Shown in pieces: positions 1-31,238 of a stretch of DNA of 32,669 nucleotides. The stretch is from assembly GCF_003063295.1 (NCBI RefSeq), contig NZ_MUXF01000008.1, forward strand, positions 1 to 32,669. Reading direction: 5' to 3'. The notes below the pieces were generated by a model. The model did no database searches. It was not told the DNA's origin and worked only from the letters and a program-made list of their open reading frames with translations. The translations under genes were made by a program, and so were the position numbers. Positions within the stretch are counted from its first letter, which is position 1; each line of letters opens with the position of its first letter. The stretch comes from Arcobacter lacus (GTDB lineage Bacteria > Campylobacterota > Campylobacteria > Campylobacterales > Arcobacteraceae).

Positions 1-220
1 AGTAGTTATTCCAGTTCCCTCAAGGTCTAAATATCCACCAACAGATAAATTATCAGGTAAAGCAGTTATTCCAGTTCCTCTAAGGTCTAAATATCCACCA
101 ACAGATAAATTATCAGGTAAAGCAGTTATTCCAGTTCCTCTAAGGTATAAACTTCCACCAACAGATAAATTATCAGGTAAAGTAGTTATTCCAGTTCCCT
201 CAAGGTCTAAATATCCACCA
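1..220. repeat. 60-bp tandem coding repeats
   Basis: Three full 60-bp units (1-60, 61-120, 121-180) and a partial fourth (181-220) are nearly identical. They differ mainly at the positions that give Glu/Arg, Tyr/Ser and Asp/Tyr. The period is 20 codons, so copy-number change keeps the frame. The array continues beyond the left edge. Confidence 0.95.
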
Positions 221-276
221 TAAACCAACTTTTCACCATCTTGTTTTAATTCATATCCTAAATCTTTTAATGTCAT
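1..276 (-). CDS. LPDN-repeat protein, N-terminal part (runs off the window)
   Basis: Reading leftward from ATG at 276-274, the frame stays open to base 1 (92 codons, no stop). A short N-terminus beginning MTLKDLGYELKQDGEKLVYG is followed by tandem 20-residue units of the form LPDNLSVGGYLDLRGTGITA, one per 60 bp. These resemble the leucine-rich-like LPDN repeats seen in many phage and bacterial proteins, which should fold as a regular beta solenoid; their function is not established. A clear ribosome site (AGGAG at about 285-289) precedes the ATG, which supports the start. The upstream 480 nt is non-coding and probably shares its transcript, driven from the operator/promoter element at 782-832. 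The C-terminal part is outside the window. Confidence 0.8.
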   Translation of the reverse strand, partial: MTLKDLGYELKQDGEKLVYGGYLDLEGTGITTLPDNLSVGGSLYLRGTGITALPDNLSVGGYLDLRGTGITALPDNLSVGGYLDLEGTGITT

Positions 277-289
277 CTTTTCTCCTTTA

Positions 290-776
290 AATTTTAGACT
301 TAACAAAGCAGTCAATACCTTTCAATAAAGACGGATTTCTTTATTTTGTTTCACATAACTATTACTAACAACAAATATAATAAATTTAACGATGTTCTTG
401 ACTGCTTGATTAAATCTAAAGATAAATCTTAAGTAAGTAGTGCCATAGGACTTTCACCTATGGACGATATATTTCAAGTGTTAGTTCGCACTCAATAAAG
501 AGGATATGGCTTAATATTTTCACTTGTATTAAAGGAACAATTTATACTTTCCACATATTTACCGAACTTGTCTTACAGTATAACTTCTTGATTGTCCTAT
601 CACTCGCCGTACTATTGTGTCTATCTTCCACCACACTACTTATTTAAGATTTAAAGTTTGACCGACTTCTCGTGCTTATCCGCGTTAAGATAAGATTTCC
701 TTTTTAGGATAAGGAACTCAACCTATTTTAAAGAGTGTTTTCTCTTACAATGTTTTAAACTAAAACTTGTTTTGAT
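290..776 (-). ncRNA. Candidate large structured RNA or long structured leader
   Basis: No open frame of useful size exists here on either strand, but perfect or near-perfect hairpin arms are dense. They are 306-315 with 398-407 (10 bp) enclosing 324-330 with 339-345 (7 bp), 443-449 with 457-463 (7 bp, loop UGAAAGU on the minus strand), 675-680 with 689-694, 697-702 with 711-716, 731-735 with 742-746, and 747-757 with 761-770 (one bulge). Strand is inferred: the 51-bp element at 782-832 is an exact inverted copy of the one that should drive rightward early transcription at 3770, so by analogy transcription here starts near 776 and runs left into the LPDN gene. It could be a phage-type large RNA (GOLLD or ROOL-like), a regulatory leader, or a degraded group II-like RNA. 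I cannot assign a family by eye. Confidence 0.45.
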
Positions 777-3083: not shown

Positions 3084-3674
3084 TTAAAAATCTTTGTCTA
3101 TTCGTCCGACTACTCTAGCCATAACTAAATCATAATTATCATCACAATGTATAGTTATTATGTCATAGTCAGGGTTCAAAGGTAGTAGAGATATTATTGT
3201 TCCAACTTCATTAATTTTATATTTTTTAATTCCACTTTCACCATTTAACCAATAATGTACAATTTTACCATTATCAATAATTTGGTTTGGTATGCAATAT
3301 ACTATATCCCCATCATTTATTTTTGGAGCCATACTATCACCGTCAGCTTCAACAGCATACATACCATCTATGTACATATCAAGTGGAACAGAAACAGGCT
3401 CATAATTACTTAAATCATAATCTTTTGGTTTTCCACAAGATGATTTACCTATAAGAGGTACTAGCTTTGAAGATAAAGACTGATTACCCATTATTTCATC
3501 AATGCTCATATTTAAAGCCTTAGAAATTAAAGGGTATAAAGAAACTGGTATATTTCTTTGTTCATTTAGATATCTATTTAAGTTTACAGTTGTTTCTTCT
3601 ATCATATCTGCAAAATCTTTTTGTGATAGTTTTTTATCTTTTAAAATTTGTTTAATATTAGAACCTACGCCCAT
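3084..3674 (-). CDS. CI-type repressor, HTH plus S24 (LexA-like) self-cleaving domain
   Basis: 196 aa. An XRE helix-turn-helix occupies about 5-62 (LSQKDFADMIEETTVNLNRY). A LexA/S24 peptidase domain follows, with the serine in GDSM (S114) and the general-base lysine in GIKKYK (K150). The predicted cleavage site is C80-G81 in SSCGKP; Cys-Gly replaces the commoner Ala-Gly, as in some UmuD and phage repressors. It should keep lysogeny by binding the double operators at 3720-3770 and 782-835 and be inactivated through RecA after DNA damage. An AAGGA site precedes the ATG, and an extended -10 (TGGTATAAT, minus strand, about 3700-3708) is a good promoter. It is divergent from the Cro-like gene. Confidence 0.92.
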   Translation of the reverse strand: MGVGSNIKQILKDKKLSQKDFADMIEETTVNLNRYLNEQRNIPVSLYPLISKALNMSIDEIMGNQSLSSKLVPLIGKSSCGKPKDYDLSNYEPVSVPLDMYIDGMYAVEADGDSMAPKINDGDIVYCIPNQIIDNGKIVHYWLNGESGIKKYKINEVGTIISLLPLNPDYDIITIHCDDNYDLVMARVVGRIDKDF

Positions 3675-3699
3675 TTAATTCCTTACATTTTAATGATTT

Positions 3700-3708
3700 A
3701 TTATACCA
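3700..3708 (-). promoter_or_regulatory. Repressor promoter (extended -10)
   Basis: On the minus strand TGGTATAAT (3708-3700) lies about 26 bp before the repressor ATG. TGn plus TATAAT is a complete extended -10. The operator element begins about 12 bp upstream, so repressor binding can control its own synthesis. Confidence 0.6.
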
Positions 3709-3719
3709 TAGTGGAAATA

Positions 3720-3770
3720 TCCATATTGGTAATATTTTAAGCTTTATTTAATTTCCATATTGGTAATATT
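3720..3770 (+). promoter_or_regulatory. Right operator pair / early rightward promoter element
   Basis: Two copies of attNNccatattggtaatatt-type operator occur, with the full 20-mer at 3751-3770 and the second at 3717-3736 (first two bases diverged). Each contains ATATT-GGT-AATAT. The second operator contains a -10-like TAATAT at 3764-3769, which ends 6 bp before the ATG of the Cro-like gene. Repressor bound here would block that promoter directly. The 51 bp are exactly repeated in inverse at 782-832. Confidence 0.8.
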
Positions 3771-3775
3771 GCTAT

Positions 3776-4009
3776 ATGAAAAAAATAAGTCAAGAACAAA
3801 TAAAAAAAATACTTAAGTGTGAACTTTCTACTGTTTCAAGATATTTGACTGGAAAAAGAGCAATTAAATTATCTTCTGCTTTAAAAGTTAGTGAAGAGTT
3901 AAAAGTACCAATTGAAATTTTTACAGACAAAGAAACTCAAGTTAAATTTTTTGGGAAATCTTTTCTCTCTGAAAATATACAAAAACCAAAACAAAATGAA
4001 AAGGTTTAA
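3776..4009 (+). CDS. Cro-like small HTH regulator
   Basis: 77 aa. Residues 3-50 form a helix-turn-helix (ISQEQIKKILKCELSTVSRY, then KVSEELKVPIEIF), with a basic polar tail. Its place, divergent from the CI-type repressor and first in the early operon, is that of Cro. No Shine-Dalgarno sequence precedes the ATG, and the -10-like TAATAT (3764-3769) ends only 6 bp upstream, which suggests a leaderless message. The stop overlaps the next start (TAATG). Confidence 0.78.
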   Translation: MKKISQEQIKKILKCELSTVSRYLTGKRAIKLSSALKVSEELKVPIEIFTDKETQVKFFGKSFLSENIQKPKQNEKV

Positions 4010-4465: not shown

Positions 4466-4588
4466 ATGAAATTAATCATAAATGGAATTGCTAAATATTT
4501 CCAAAATATAAAAGATAAAAAAACAAAAGTTAAATTAACTCACCTCGATTTAAAAGGTGAAAAACCTATAAAGCTATCTTTTAATTAG
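4466..4588 (+). CDS. 40-aa early ORF
   Basis: ATG at 4466 preceded by GAGGAG (4453-4458) opens 40 codons: a lysine-rich basic peptide starting MKLIINGIAKYFQNIKDKKT and ending in KLSFN. The strong ribosome site 7 nt upstream and its place 13 nt after the preceding stop favour real translation. The stop lies in a hairpin (4570-4576 with 4590-4596), so translation could influence folding of the following leader. Possible roles are leader peptide or small early inhibitor; function unknown. Confidence 0.55.
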   Translation: MKLIINGIAKYFQNIKDKKTKVKLTHLDLKGEKPIKLSFN

Positions 4589-4886
4589 GTAGCTTTGATT
4601 AGGCACATTATCCCCTTAGTGTGTCTAACAAAAGCTATTAAGCTTTAATGTGTTTTAAGAAATTTTTCCTTTATTGGATTAGAGTGAGTCTTGATTTGGC
4701 TTTCCTTTCTCACTCTAATTTAAAACACCCATCAAATGGTGCAACGAGATTATATTAAAAATATTCTTAGTTGCTTACAAAAAACCTTTTACAAACTAAC
4801 TACTCGTTTTTTAAAAATTCCTCCAAGATACAAAATTGGGGTAGTTAGTTGGTTTGTAAAGGCAAATAGTATCTTTGGAGGATATT
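4589..4886 (+). promoter_or_regulatory. Structured leader that can sequester the ribosome site of the helicase-methyltransferase gene
   Basis: This 298-nt stretch has no supported gene but many exact stems: 4631-4636 with 4641-4646; 4650-4658 with 4720-4728 (9 bp) stacked directly on 4678-4688 with 4709-4719 (11 bp); 4741-4745 with 4770-4774. Near the start codon two long stems interlock. Stem A pairs 4785-4803 with 4841-4862 (7 plus about 9 bp around a 4-nt bulge). Stem B pairs 4819-4831 (TCCTCCAAGATAC) with 4869-4882 (GTATCTTTGGAGGA, one bulge). The 3' arm of B contains the GGAGG ribosome site for ATG 4887. The arms are ordered A, B, A', B', so A and B are either a pseudoknot or alternatives. 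This is a classic arrangement for translational control; the ligand or partner is unknown. Confidence 0.6.
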
Positions 4887-7448
4887 ATGAGTAAGAATGA
4901 AGTACCTTACAATGAATTTATAAAAAATAAAATCAAACTAAAAGAAGAACAAGGCTTTTCAAACATTCAAATAAGCGATATTAATCCAATTCTAAAAGAC
5001 CATCAAAAAGCAATAGTAAGATGGGCAGTAAGACAAGGTAGAGCAGCAATATTTGCATCTTTTGGTTTAGGTAAAACAATAATACAACTTGAAACTGTAA
5101 GAATTACTAGAAATTATGCAGGTGGATATGGATTAATAGTATGCCCTTTAGGTGTTAGAGGCGAGTTTATAAATGATGCAAAATTACTAAATGTTAAAGT
5201 TAAATTTATAAGAAGTGTTGAAGAAGTAGAAGATGAAAAAACTATTTATTTAACTAATTATGAAACTATCAGAGATGGAAAAATAGATCCTAATTTCTTT
5301 ACAGTTGCTAGTTTAGATGAAGCTAGTGTTTTAAGAGGATTTGGTGGAACTAAGACATTTAGAGAATTTATGGCTTTATTTGCTGGTGATAGAAAAACTA
5401 TGAATTTAAGAACAATAAGAGAGTCGGTACCTTATAGATTCGTAGCTACTGCAACACCATCACCAAATGATTATATAGAACTTTTAGCATATAGTGCTTT
5501 TTTAGGTGTTATGGATGTATCACAAGCAAAAACAAGATTTTTTAAACGAGATAGTACAAAAGCTGATAAATTAACTCTTCATAGTCATAAAGAAGATGAG
5601 TTTTGGTTATGGGTAAGTTCATGGGGATTATTTGTACAGAAACCATCTGATTTGGGTTTTAGTGATGATGGATATTCATTGCCTGATATGAAAATCAACT
5701 GGGTAGAACTTGCAAATGAAGAAAATGACTTTGACTATGACCATAATGGTCAAGCTATTATGTTTAGAGACTCTTCAACTTCTTTAATTGAAGCAAGTAG
5801 AGAAAAAAGAGACTCTGCTCCTAAAAGAATTAAAGCTGCACAAGAAATAATTAAAACATATACAAACAATGAACAAATTGTTATTTGGGCTGATTTAAAC
5901 TATGAACAAGAAGAAACAGAAAAAGCCTTAAAAGAGATAAATTGTGATTATATCTCTCTATATGGAAATCAAACAATAGACGAAAGAGAAAAACAATTAA
6001 ACAGTTGGAAAGCTAAAGAAAAAAGAGTTTTTTTATCTAAGCCTATGATGTATGGTAGTGGTGTAAATCTTCAGCAATCAAACAAAATGATTTTTTTAGG
6101 AATTGGTTTTAAATTTAATGATTTTATACAGGCTATTCATAGAATTTATAGATTTTTACAAAGTAAAGAAGTAGAGATAAATATTATCTATACAGAAGCA
6201 GAAAATGGTGTAAGAAAAATATTAGAGGAAAAATGGATGAAACATAATAAAACAGTAGAAAAAATGACAGAAATAATCAAAAATTATGGTCTAAGTAATA
6301 AAGAAATGTTTGAAGTACTTGAAAGAAAGATAGGAGTAGAAAGAATAGAATCTAGTTCTAAATTATATACATTAGTTCATAATGATACAGTTGAAGAAAC
6401 TAAAAACATGCAAGAAAATTCTATGGATATGATTTTAACTTCAATCCCTTTTTCTAGCCAATATGAGTATAGTCCTAATTATTGTGATTTTGGACATAGT
6501 GATACAAATAGCCACTTTTTTGAGCAAATGGATTTTTTAAGTCCAGAACTTTTAAGAGTTTTAAAACCTGGACGAATTGCTGCAATACATGTAAAAGATA
6601 GAATAGTACCAGGTGGACTTACTGATTTAGGTTTTCAAACAGTTTATCCATTTCATAGTAATTGTATAAACCATTATATTAAACATGGTTTTGCTTATAT
6701 GGGAATGATTACAGTAGTTACAGATGTTGTAAGAGAAAATAATCAAACTTATAGATTAGGGTGGAGTGAAGTTTGCAAAGATGGAAGTAAAATATCTTGT
6801 GGTATGCCTGAGTATATATTACTTTTTAGAAAACCACAAACTGATAATACAAGAGCTTATGCAGATGATCCAGTTGTTAAAAATAAAAGTGACTATTCGA
6901 GAGCAAGATGGCAAACAGATGCACATGGTTTTTGGAGAAGTTCTGGAGATAGATTACTTATGCCAGAAGAACTTGAAAAAATGGAAAGTGATAAGATATT
7001 TCAAACTTTCAGAGATAGACATTTAGAGTCTATTTATGATTATGAACATCATGTAAAAATAGGTGAACATTTAGACTTAAAAGGTAAATTACCAGTTTCA
7101 TTTATGCTTTTACAGCCACCATCTTGGAATGAAGATGTTTGGACTGATGTAGCAAGAATGAGAACTCTAAATATGATACAAAAACAAAAAGGGCAAGAAC
7201 AGCATTTATGTCCTTTACAATTTGACATAATCCAAAGATTAGTTAATAGATTCACAAATAAAGGTGAGATAGTTTTTGACCCTTTTAGTGGTATAGGTAG
7301 CACTGGATATATATCTTTAAAAGAAGATAGAAAATACAGAGGACATGAATTAAATTTTGGTTATTGGGTTGATAGTTGTAGTTACTTAAAAAGTGCAGAA
7401 GATGAAAAATTGTTACCATCTTTATTTGACTTTATGGGAGTTGCATAA
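4887..7448 (+). CDS. SNF2-type helicase fused to a beta-class DNA methyltransferase
   Basis: 853 aa from ATG 4887, chosen because GGAGG sits 5 nt upstream; the frame extends to an upstream TTG at 4875 but that lies inside the ribosome site. The N-terminal half is an SF2 helicase: Walker A SFGLGKT (58-64), DEAS box (about 147-150), TATPS (about 190), then the C-lobe GSGVNL and QAIHRIYR (about 410-420). The C-terminal half is an amino-methyltransferase in beta order: catalytic TSIPF (about 517, an S-I-P-F variant of the N/D/S-P-P-Y/F motif) and, near the end, the SAM motif DPFSGIGSTG (about 797). It should methylate adenine-N6 or cytosine-N4, using ATP to move along DNA. No nuclease domain is seen, so it is probably a self-protection or anti-restriction enzyme. 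Translation is probably controlled by the upstream leader. Confidence 0.88.
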   Translation: MSKNEVPYNEFIKNKIKLKEEQGFSNIQISDINPILKDHQKAIVRWAVRQGRAAIFASFGLGKTIIQLETVRITRNYAGGYGLIVCPLGVRGEFINDAKLLNVKVKFIRSVEEVEDEKTIYLTNYETIRDGKIDPNFFTVASLDEASVLRGFGGTKTFREFMALFAGDRKTMNLRTIRESVPYRFVATATPSPNDYIELLAYSAFLGVMDVSQAKTRFFKRDSTKADKLTLHSHKEDEFWLWVSSWGLFVQKPSDLGFSDDGYSLPDMKINWVELANEENDFDYDHNGQAIMFRDSSTSLIEASREKRDSAPKRIKAAQEIIKTYTNNEQIVIWADLNYEQEETEKALKEINCDYISLYGNQTIDEREKQLNSWKAKEKRVFLSKPMMYGSGVNLQQSNKMIFLGIGFKFNDFIQAIHRIYRFLQSKEVEINIIYTEAENGVRKILEEKWMKHNKTVEKMTEIIKNYGLSNKEMFEVLERKIGVERIESSSKLYTLVHNDTVEETKNMQENSMDMILTSIPFSSQYEYSPNYCDFGHSDTNSHFFEQMDFLSPELLRVLKPGRIAAIHVKDRIVPGGLTDLGFQTVYPFHSNCINHYIKHGFAYMGMITVVTDVVRENNQTYRLGWSEVCKDGSKISCGMPEYILLFRKPQTDNTRAYADDPVVKNKSDYSRARWQTDAHGFWRSSGDRLLMPEELEKMESDKIFQTFRDRHLESIYDYEHHVKIGEHLDLKGKLPVSFMLLQPPSWNEDVWTDVARMRTLNMIQKQKGQEQHLCPLQFDIIQRLVNRFTNKGEIVFDPFSGIGSTGYISLKEDRKYRGHELNFGYWVDSCSYLKSAEDEKLLPSLFDFMGVA

Positions 7449-28347: not shown

Positions 28348-30246
28348 ATGAAATTTGAAAGACCTAATAGCAATATTGTACCTTTTGGAACGAATGCAAA
28401 TGAAAATAAGAGATTTGCATTTGGTACAAATAATTATACAAATGATATAAATGAAAACTTAAATGATAATTTTAAGTTAGGTTGGGAAACTGTTGGAATA
28501 AATAGTAAACCACCAAGACAATGGTTTAATGGATTAGCTTATACTTCAACTTATCTAACTTCTTATTTATTTCAAACTGGTATTCCTGAATGGAATGAAA
28601 ATCAAGAATATTATATAAATTCTATTACTAAAGGTAGTGATGGAAATTTATATCGTTCTTTGGTTGGTACAGAAGGTAGTCCAAATGTAAATAAAAATCC
28701 ATTGACGGAGCCAAATTATTGGAAAAATGATAATCTTGAATTATATGAGGATAGTAAATTTTCAATAGGTTTTATGGATCATTTAACATCTTCACTTACA
28801 AAAACATCAAATAGTATTACATTAACATTTAACGCTGATACAAAAATATATAAATATGGTAAACCTTATTTATTTGAAGCTGGAGAAAGTATAACTTTTA
28901 GTACATCTAGTTTAAGTATTGGTATTGGATATTATATTATTTTAGATTTAGATACTAGAACTCTTTTTGCAAGAAGTGGAACTCCTAATTTTTCAGAAGA
29001 CATTTTAGTGTCATGGATTTTATTAAATAGTTCTTCAAATATTATTTGGGCAAATGATGAAAGACACTTATGTTCTAGAAATGTTGAATGGCATAAAAAT
29101 CATCATTTAGAAGTTGGTGCAAGTTGGTTAAGAGGTGGAAATCTAATATTTACAAAAGATACAGTAGGTGCAGTAAATATTGAAGTTAATACACCAGTTC
29201 TAATAGCTGATGAAGAATTATTTTATACAATAGAACATAACAATACACCAACTTTACCATTCCAGCAAAAACTACAAGGTCCTACTAACTACAATGTTTA
29301 TTTTTTAGATAATAACCAAAATTACGATTTTACAAATAGTGGTAATGGAAGTTGTCCTTTTTTATATAGTGGAACATCTATAAAATACAATGATGCAATA
29401 AATGGTGGACTTGTTAATGCTTCTAATGAAAACTTTGTTTGTTATTGGCAACTATATACAACAGATTGGGAAAATCCTGTAAAAATGATTATAGGTAGAG
29501 TTTCACATTCAAATATATCAGATGCAGAAAAAGAAGTTTTTGAAGATTACGGATTAAATATGCCTGAAATAATAGGAGTTGCTAAAATAATTATTCAAAG
29601 TGATTCTAGCATAATAGGAAATCCACCTTTAAGAATTAGAGGAGTTTATTATCTAAGAAATGAGACTGTTCAGAGTTCTGCTTTAACTCCTACAAATCAT
29701 AATAATTTAGCTGGAAGAAATGAGGCGGACCAACATCCTATAAGTTCTATTACAGGTCTTGAAGAAGCTTTATCAAATTTAGGTACTTTACCAATAGGAC
29801 TACCTTTAGTTAGTTATGAAATTTATCCAAATTGTGTTGTTGCTTTTGGTGGTGAATTCAATAGAGCGGAGTATCCAAAATTGTGGGCTTGGTTACAAGG
29901 AAAAGAATTTTTAAAAACAGAGGCACAGTGGCAAGCTGAAGCAACTGCTAATGGTGGAATTTGTGGTTATTTTTCTAGTGGTAATGGTACAACAAATTTT
30001 AGAGTTCCAAAGTTAGATAAAGCATTCTTAAGACCAGATAGTAGAGGTGTTGCTAGTTATCAAGCTGATGAATTTAAGTCACATAGTCACGGATTACCTG
30101 GGAATATCTCAAATGGTACAACAGACGGAAGTGTTGATTGGAATACTGGTAGTACAACCTCGGCATATTATAATACAAGAACAGCAGGTGGAGCCGAGAC
30201 AAGACCTAAAAATATTGCAGTTTTACCACTAATTGTTGCAAAATAA
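28348..30246 (+). CDS. Tail fibre with C-terminal collar-type tip
   Basis: 632 aa. The N-terminus (RFAFGTNNYTNDINENLNDN, KPPRQWFNGLAYTSTYLTSY) is the baseplate-binding part of many phage fibres. It is followed by a chitin-binding-like GIPEWNENQEYYINSITKGS region, then variable beta-rich modules. The C-terminal 150 residues form a tail-collar fold: FGGEFNRAEYPKLWAWLQG, GTTNFRVPKLDKAFLRPD, SHSHGLPG, and GGAETRPKNIAVLPLIVAK. The SHSH and the terminal ETRPKN motif are standard for these receptor-binding tips. The target receptor is unknown. Confidence 0.88.
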   Translation: MKFERPNSNIVPFGTNANENKRFAFGTNNYTNDINENLNDNFKLGWETVGINSKPPRQWFNGLAYTSTYLTSYLFQTGIPEWNENQEYYINSITKGSDGNLYRSLVGTEGSPNVNKNPLTEPNYWKNDNLELYEDSKFSIGFMDHLTSSLTKTSNSITLTFNADTKIYKYGKPYLFEAGESITFSTSSLSIGIGYYIILDLDTRTLFARSGTPNFSEDILVSWILLNSSSNIIWANDERHLCSRNVEWHKNHHLEVGASWLRGGNLIFTKDTVGAVNIEVNTPVLIADEELFYTIEHNNTPTLPFQQKLQGPTNYNVYFLDNNQNYDFTNSGNGSCPFLYSGTSIKYNDAINGGLVNASNENFVCYWQLYTTDWENPVKMIIGRVSHSNISDAEKEVFEDYGLNMPEIIGVAKIIIQSDSSIIGNPPLRIRGVYYLRNETVQSSALTPTNHNNLAGRNEADQHPISSITGLEEALSNLGTLPIGLPLVSYEIYPNCVVAFGGEFNRAEYPKLWAWLQGKEFLKTEAQWQAEATANGGICGYFSSGNGTTNFRVPKLDKAFLRPDSRGVASYQADEFKSHSHGLPGNISNGTTDGSVDWNTGSTTSAYYNTRTAGGAETRPKNIAVLPLIVAK

Positions 30247-30258
30247 GGAGTTTAAAAT

Positions 30259-30795
30259 ATGAATAAAATTTATAAATACGATATTGAAACAAAAGAGCTT
30301 TTAGAAGAACTTAGAATAAATGAAGCTTATGGAACTAACCTACCATTTACAACAACTATTAAACCACTTGCCAAAAAAGATGGTTTTGCAGTTTCCTTTA
30401 ACGGTACAAAATGGGAATATGTAGAAGATAATAGAAATGCTGTTGTTTATAATAAAGAAACGAAACAAGAGTCTAAAATCGACTACTTAGGAAAAATCAA
30501 AGATGATGTAACTATATCAAAGCCAGAGCAATTTGATAAGTGGGATAATGAAACTAATAGTTGGGTATGCGATGAAGTTGAAAAAGAAAATGATAGAGTT
30601 CAAAATATCAACTCTTACACTCAAAACTATATCACAAAAAAATATCCACTTGAAAAACAATCAAGTGCCAATTTAGGAATATATGGTGAAGAGTACAAAA
30701 ACGAAATGATTTTATTTATTTCTAATGTAATAGAGAAATCAAATTTAGCTATTGCAAATGGTATTAGTTTAGAAGATTTTAAAGAGTCGCTATGA
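30259..30795 (+). CDS. Tail fibre assembly chaperone (probable)
   Basis: 178 aa. N-terminal MNKIYKYDIETKELLEELRI, PLAKKDGFAVSFNGTKWEYV and a mid-protein DKWDNETNSWVCDEV fit tail fibre assembly (Tfa-like) proteins encoded after fibres; the C-terminus is helical (YGEEYKNEMILFISNVIEKS). AAGGAG precedes the ATG. It should help trimerise or cap the fibre tip. Confidence 0.75.
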   Translation: MNKIYKYDIETKELLEELRINEAYGTNLPFTTTIKPLAKKDGFAVSFNGTKWEYVEDNRNAVVYNKETKQESKIDYLGKIKDDVTISKPEQFDKWDNETNSWVCDEVEKENDRVQNINSYTQNYITKKYPLEKQSSANLGIYGEEYKNEMILFISNVIEKSNLAIANGISLEDFKESL

Positions 30796-31238
30796 ATATG
30801 CAAAATATAAATGATATATCAGTTCTATTAAAAATATATTTTTCAATATTTTATTCTTACATATTGATTTCTCTTGATTATGCGGGAATACCTGAAAAGA
30901 CTTTTGTTGTTTTATGTATTTTAATGACAGTTGATATATTTACGGGAATTTGGAAAGGCTATATATTAAAAGAACTTTCATCATCACCTATAACAACAGG
31001 TATTATAAAAAAGTCTGGATTGTTGATTGCTCTTTATATGATTTTTTTAGGTGTTTCAGTTGTATCTGAATTAAATTTTATAGGAAATTTATTCGTTGGA
31101 ATGTTTATATTAGCTGAATTGATTAGTATTGTAGGAAATATCGTTGCTATTAGAGAGAAATATAAAATTTCAGAACATGACGCCCTGCTACAAGTTAGTG
31201 AAGTTTTAAAAGATTTATTCAAAAAAAGGGGAAAATAG
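30792..31238 (+). CDS. Holin
   Basis: 148 aa, three to four membrane helices (about 12-30, 35-52, 72-92, 96-115). ILMTVDIFTGIWKGYILKEL followed by SSPITTGIIKKSGLLIALYM is typical of the holin 4 family ('D..TG..ka......S......Kk'). A charged C-terminal tail faces the cytoplasm. It makes the inner-membrane lesion that triggers lysis. ATGA overlap with the fibre chaperone; spanin gene starts right after the stop. Confidence 0.85.
   Translation: MNMQNINDISVLLKIYFSIFYSYILISLDYAGIPEKTFVVLCILMTVDIFTGIWKGYILKELSSSPITTGIIKKSGLLIALYMIFLGVSVVSELNFIGNLFVGMFILAELISIVGNIVAIREKYKISEHDALLQVSEVLKDLFKKRGK

Follow-up and report, generated by a model that had tools for sequence, protein, structure and literature searches.

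Organization of the early region

The window analysed here, that is, the whole stretch of 32,669 nucleotides at positions 1 to 32,669 of contig NZ_MUXF01000008.1 of Arcobacter lacus, encodes around the locus of interest a Sie-like protein, a staphylococcal-type nuclease, an antirepressor, an S24 repressor, a Cro-like protein and a helicase-methyltransferase, which we take to be the genes of a temperate phage with a lambda-like layout. The left operator (782-838) consists of two 23-nt direct repeats (782-804 and 816-838), 34 nt apart, and an inverted copy of it, the right operator, lies at 3717-3785, with its repeat pair at 3716-3770, before the Cro-like gene at 3776. The first leftward gene (1-276, minus strand), encoding an LPDN leucine-rich-repeat (LRR) protein, is truncated at the contig end, which falls within the 60-nt repeats of this gene and probably represents an assembly break in the repeats. 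The 92-aa fragment of its product has no match in Pfam, and the LRR naming rests on its relative in phage L066, which has leucine-rich-repeat matches. The gene starts at 276, behind the Shine-Dalgarno sequence AAAGGAG (282-288, minus strand, as read from the sequence), and its own ORF could also begin at a TTG at position 315.

The minus-strand tract 290-776 forms the leader between the duplicated operator and the start of this gene. The original prediction had described about 480 nt without an ORF at this place and, indeed, the ORF list contains none of at least 60 aa within 316-776; a hidden small ORF is also ruled out, as no frame of at least 20 aa is present on the sense strand of the leader when ATG is taken as the only start codon. 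Since a search for sigma-70 consensus promoters gave no minus-strand candidate between 776 and 850, we infer the early leftward promoter and transcription start from the operator, at which they would lie.

Five further phages, designated L038, L039, L062, L066 and L122, were identified through neighbouring proteins in viral contigs, and patterns taken from the leaders retrieved no records beyond that of the window itself and some of L038, L039, L062 and L066. Each of the six phages has a non-coding leader between its left operator region and the first leftward gene. This gene belongs to the LRR kind in three of them (the window, L039 and L066); its product begins with MFGYKGFDK in L038 and L062, with that of L038 matching DUF7666, and differs from both kinds in L122. 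An in-frame upstream ATG in L066 lengthens the first gene into the leader element described below as module A. The left operon of the L066 phage (L095, 24-3284, minus strand) comprises the LRR gene, an 82-aa ORF and the genes for a PDDEXK-like protein (DUF3799) and RecT; the lambda PL operon likewise leads to recombination genes. L122 is a distant metagenomic phage with structured leaders at 3510-3790 (minus strand) and 7045-7375 (plus strand), which have different sequences.

Modular structure of the left leader

When hairpins were defined as exact, non-overlapping Watson-Crick stems with a minimum of 6 bp and 3-12 nt in the loop, the leader was found to contain six (324-345, 443-463, 511-532, 675-694, 697-716 and 752-766), compared with a mean of 1.83 in dinucleotide shuffles, none of which (0/200) reached this number. 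The hairpin richness on which the original prediction was built is thus retained, the asserted count of at least seven being dependent on the cut-off. Two exact long-range stems of 10 bp (423-653 and 306-407) were also found, a number reached by 2 of 200 shuffles; with mismatches allowed, the long stems measure 23 nt (293-315/398-420, 87%) and 20 nt (423-442/634-653, 95%). The tract as a whole folds below shuffles on both strands (z -3.5 on the minus strand and -4.5 on the plus strand), so that energy alone cannot choose the strand of the left leader. Among 200-nt pieces the left leader is not outstanding, with z -2.2 for minus-strand 301-500 and z +1.7 for minus-strand 451-650, and structure along it is uneven.

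Comparison with the related phages revealed that the left tract is a string of exchangeable modules, the best conserved of which, module A, adjoins the ribosome-binding site. At the operator side, the 5' segment of the window (656-776, minus strand), which includes the first hairpin (752-766), is of type I and shares 91% identity over 127 nt with that of L039; type II is found in L038, L062 and, more loosely, L122, and L066 has another type. In the three type II segments, compared by eye, the arms of the small hairpins differ and GGTG, AGAAAT and ACATTAAA are kept. The 5' segments are not significant by energy (z -1.8 to +0.25, with -1.3 for 656-776 of the window). The middle of the leader is occupied by module B (421-655), delimited by the 20-bp closing stem (423-442/634-653). 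L039 carries module A twice, and module B sits in the slot of its second copy. A pattern scan found the core of module B in no other viral contig, and its folding is stronger on the plus strand (z -5.5, against -2.4 for the minus strand).

A covarying stem upstream of the first leftward gene

Module A (291-422, minus strand) consists of a 22-pair closing stem, an AU-rich linker, the 324-345 hairpin, a GGU and the 3' arm. The hairpin exposes AUCCG in its loop in the window and in four related phages alike; after the GGU, the module varies in L066 and L038. In these five phages the element is 116-137 nt long and ends just ahead of the following gene's Shine-Dalgarno sequence, 4-5 nt from it. The window and L062 are 96% identical over 274-420 of the window, although their operators and first genes are different, and module A is therefore not tied to one gene. 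For the same reason, the suggestion in the original prediction that the tract might be the long leader of the LPDN gene holds only in part: a leader is preferred here over a stand-alone RNA, and the link to that particular gene is not upheld.

Covariation among homologues, put forward with the original prediction as a check on a structured RNA, was found in module A: across six copies only, those from the window and L062 being almost the same and thus not independent, 16 of 27 pairs show compensatory changes and 92.5% of the cells pair, in a MAFFT alignment with gaps misplaced after the AUCCG hairpin in A1 and with helix 2 counted in one register only. None of 500 shuffles reached any of the five measures used, and sliding one strand of the structure left only 0-5 pairs with changes on both sides. 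Each of the six copies has a folding energy far below that of its shuffles (z -4.3 to -8.4, 0/60 each). For the window's copy, folding is likewise strong on the plus strand (z -4.6); a minus-strand RNA is favoured because the closing stem contains 11 G-U and no A-C cells among 129.

In L122, a long stem occupies the same place; it was matched by the left covariance model (E 0.002 in 12.4 kb, filters off), lacks the AUCCG hairpin and scores alike on both strands (26.9 and 26.5 bits). Hence, the long stem is kept upstream of the first gene in six of six phages, and its length stays as the inner sequence changes. The left Shine-Dalgarno sequence is unmasked, its best pairing partners reaching -5.5 to -9.6 kcal/mol in five phages.

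A second structured tract in the rightward early operon

A second structured tract (4569-4886), located outside the 290-776 interval under study, lies in the rightward early operon, behind cro and two further ORFs and ahead of the helicase gene. Directly before it is a 40-aa ORF (4466-4588, plus strand, from the ORF list); a similar ORF is listed in L093, and similar frames are seen by eye in other relatives. The tract comprises four conserved hairpins, H1-H4 (4569-4728, plus strand), and a terminal stem, H6 (4788-4860, plus strand; arms 4788-4803 and 4841-4860). The plus-strand piece 4501-4700 is the furthest below shuffles in kcal/mol, by energy rather than by z, among 434 pieces scored by strand; by z, the right tract is led by 30601-30800 (plus strand, z -6.2 from 15 shuffles). 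The piece 28501-28700 (plus strand) also folds below shuffles (z -3.9, 15 shuffles), and both of the latter regions are largely within coding genes.

The right tract is homologous in five phages, in each of which it folds below all 60 shuffles (z -5.7 to -7.6). RNAalifold reported double-sided changes for 12 of the 74 pairs; its covariation term is about zero or slightly unfavourable (+0.12 for the whole tract and +1.04 for the first half), a consequence of the close similarity of the five sequences. L122 shares only the architecture of the terminal stem (z -3.9), and its right tract is not found by the right model. Model R2 is mostly a sequence profile, its structure string holding only the H2 helix. 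Different genes follow the tract: that of the helicase-methyltransferase in the window, one for a Rha/antirepressor protein in L094 of the L062 phage, and one for an ORF6C-domain protein in L091 of the L066 phage.

The loop of H6 holds a strand (4820-4831, plus strand) complementary to the strand that carries the Shine-Dalgarno sequence of the gene at 4887 (4869-4881, plus strand). This complementarity is present in six of six phages, whose best pairing with the Shine-Dalgarno region reaches -15.5 to -19.3 kcal/mol, compared with a best value of -12.2 and a median of -5.6 kcal/mol for 34 hand-picked plus-strand genes of the window, which were not matched for intergenic composition. The masking strands come in three unrelated versions, namely, CCTCCAAGATAC/GTATCTTTGGAGG in the window, CCTCCAGTAC/GTACTGGGAGG in L093 and CTCCTACGAT/ATCGTAGGAG in L122; at the level of sequence, the pairing is thus kept while the letters change, that is, it covaries. 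In L093, a different stretch pairs slightly better with the Shine-Dalgarno region (-16.5 vs -15.3 kcal/mol). In nested folds, the H6 loop strand can instead pair with a G-rich stretch inside the stem. Given that a pseudoknot would require 3-8 nt to cross a stem of at least 14 pairs, the H6 stem and the masking helix may exclude each other.

Distribution and relationship to known RNA classes

Searches against Rfam 15 yielded no match at the gathering score in the whole window or in seven related loci, and the four matches obtained for 200-920 at E up to 10 include none to GOLLD, ROOL or group II families. Membership in GOLLD or ROOL, as contemplated in the original prediction, is accordingly not supported.

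Among 104 genomes of the family and 397 of the class, no additional member was convincing. Phage DNA contained no true homologue: one search gave only 11 short matches (E 0.6) and another six matches from a single Prevotella phage group (E 0.04). Plasmid DNA gave no matches. DNA searches of relatives' genomes produced matches in 50 of 150, short and mostly to the AT-rich operator side of the query, and other DNA searches matched 3, 5 and 8 of 104 genomes; each of these counts includes the window's own genome, and no true homologue was among the matches read. In genome sets with one genome per species, the left model matched its own genome and three others at E 0.5-0.9 among 104 genomes of the family, and the right model its own and six others at E up to 1, the three examined adjoining host genes; among 397 genomes of the class, each model matched only its own genome. 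These large model searches were run with strict filters and scored few candidates per genome, so that weak members can escape them. In 11 other genomes of the family with a relative of the protein encoded at 904-1749, no fetched locus matched the left model at E up to 10, and three of seven virus records also lacked a match to this model. A pattern scan of genome contigs returned nothing, and a protein scan returned one irrelevant record. The tape-measure protein has matches in 140 phage records, all distant, with less than 60% identity.

Discussion

We are modestly inclined to regard both tracts as cis-acting leader RNAs that control the translation of early genes, a reading that builds on their position and conservation, on the covariation of module A and on the complementary masking strand of the right tract. 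According to this model, release of the left operator by the repressor would allow synthesis of the lambda-like prophage's leftward early mRNA, with the leader at its 5' end. The leader would act in cis before any gene, folding in the cell into successive modules, the last of them being the module A stem in front of the ribosome-binding site. Following release of the repressor, both early messages would begin with or contain long folded leaders. Masking of the Shine-Dalgarno sequence is predicted for the right tract only: in an off state, the H6 loop strand would occupy the Shine-Dalgarno sequence of the gene behind it; in an on state, it would pair with the G-rich stretch inside the stem and so free that sequence, with a putative trigger setting the switch. 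Because the left Shine-Dalgarno sequence is not masked, the mechanism on that side is drawn by analogy; the 22-pair stem could act on translation or on mRNA processing, and may be an insulator, a positioning element or a site of processing. In either operon, the leaders would set the timing and efficiency of translation of the first early genes.

Cis-acting leaders that mask the Shine-Dalgarno sequence include riboswitches and phage translational operators. The right tract resembles them in having a strand that pairs with the Shine-Dalgarno region, with a pairing that outlasts sequence change. By contrast, one kind of element precedes unrelated genes here, no Rfam family covers it, and the left tract lacks masking (-5.5 to -9.6 kcal/mol). 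Control by attenuation is rejected, as neither tract contains a terminator-like site on the sense strand; two weak sites of this kind (4539-4561 and 4725-4742) belong to the other strand.

A different kind of control would be RNA-based antitermination as in phage HK022, whose put RNA binds the beta' zinc-binding domain of RNA polymerase and suppresses termination; here, the emerging leaders would bind RNA polymerase and terminators would be read through in both operons. The put element is an RNA of about 70 nt with two stem-loops, found downstream of both early promoters, and its left and right copies share sequence (PMC9378689). The tracts described here likewise place structured RNA downstream of both early operators, and of the putative early promoters, and the occurrence of one element before different genes would also suit such a role. 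However, relative to put, they are long and modular; module A, at 116-137 nt, is a single long stem that encloses a hairpin, rather than a two-stem RNA of about 70 nt; and the best-conserved parts sit at ribosome-binding sites. Moreover, 5 x 5 comparisons covering the five phages other than L122 revealed no significant sequence similarity between left and right tracts (best E 0.05), and left-right homology is rejected on this basis. The tracts also occupy positions in the left and right early operons that parallel those of nutL, nutR and the N leader of lambda; lambda-type nut sites are nevertheless rejected, since the best boxA candidates in ten leaders have 3-5 mismatches in 12 positions relative to the consensus and are equalled in 53 to 200 of 200 shuffles, that is, boxA is no better than chance. 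Overall, put-like antitermination strikes us as unlikely, if worth keeping in mind.

Precedents for processing by RNase III are provided by the N leader of lambda and by early RNA of T7. A site of this type, at which the stem of about 22 bp would be cut and the leader removed so as to set the stability or translation of the early mRNA, would account for a long stem that all six phages keep ahead of the first gene, with its length kept as the inner sequence changes. Such processing alone, however, leaves unexplained both the AUCCG hairpin and the anti-Shine-Dalgarno strand of the right tract, and we consider it quite improbable as the full explanation.

Function at the DNA level, with the inverted repeats serving as recombination linkers between phage modules or as a replication origin and having no role as RNA, is very unlikely: module boundaries at start codons, flanking exchanged genes, and folding on both strands, as expected of inverted repeats, would be in keeping with it, but the 11 G-U vs 0 A-C cells of the closing stem point to one RNA strand, and the anti-Shine-Dalgarno pairing, as far as the sequences tell, covaries. 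As for large RNAs, GOLLD and ROOL form homo-oligomeric RNA cages and are often encoded near tRNA islands (PMC12286853). Despite the size of several hundred nucleotides, the prophage location and the structure that the left tract has in common with the RNAs so described, a stand-alone large phage RNA of this kind, or of a new class of this kind, can be given hardly any credence, considering the lack of an Rfam match, of a tRNA gene in the window, of a common large fold and of a sense-strand terminator before the gene, and considering that its modules are exchangeable, vary among phages and run directly into the ribosome-binding site that follows, the best-conserved one ending 4-5 nt before the Shine-Dalgarno sequence.

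Returning to cis-acting control of translation, the left and right leaders look like undescribed RNA elements of the phage cis-acting leader RNA kind; our searches of the open-licence literature found no description of them. It is conceivable, even if we would not expect it, that exchangeable leader modules in both early operons of this phage group, each ending at the ribosome-binding site of the next gene, whichever it may be, switch early translation in response to a signal by RNA refolding, with no dedicated protein. The right element makes a specific prediction, namely, that one helix decides whether an early gene is translatable. If the modules indeed swap independently of operator and gene, early phage control would have an RNA layer that gene-based annotation misses.
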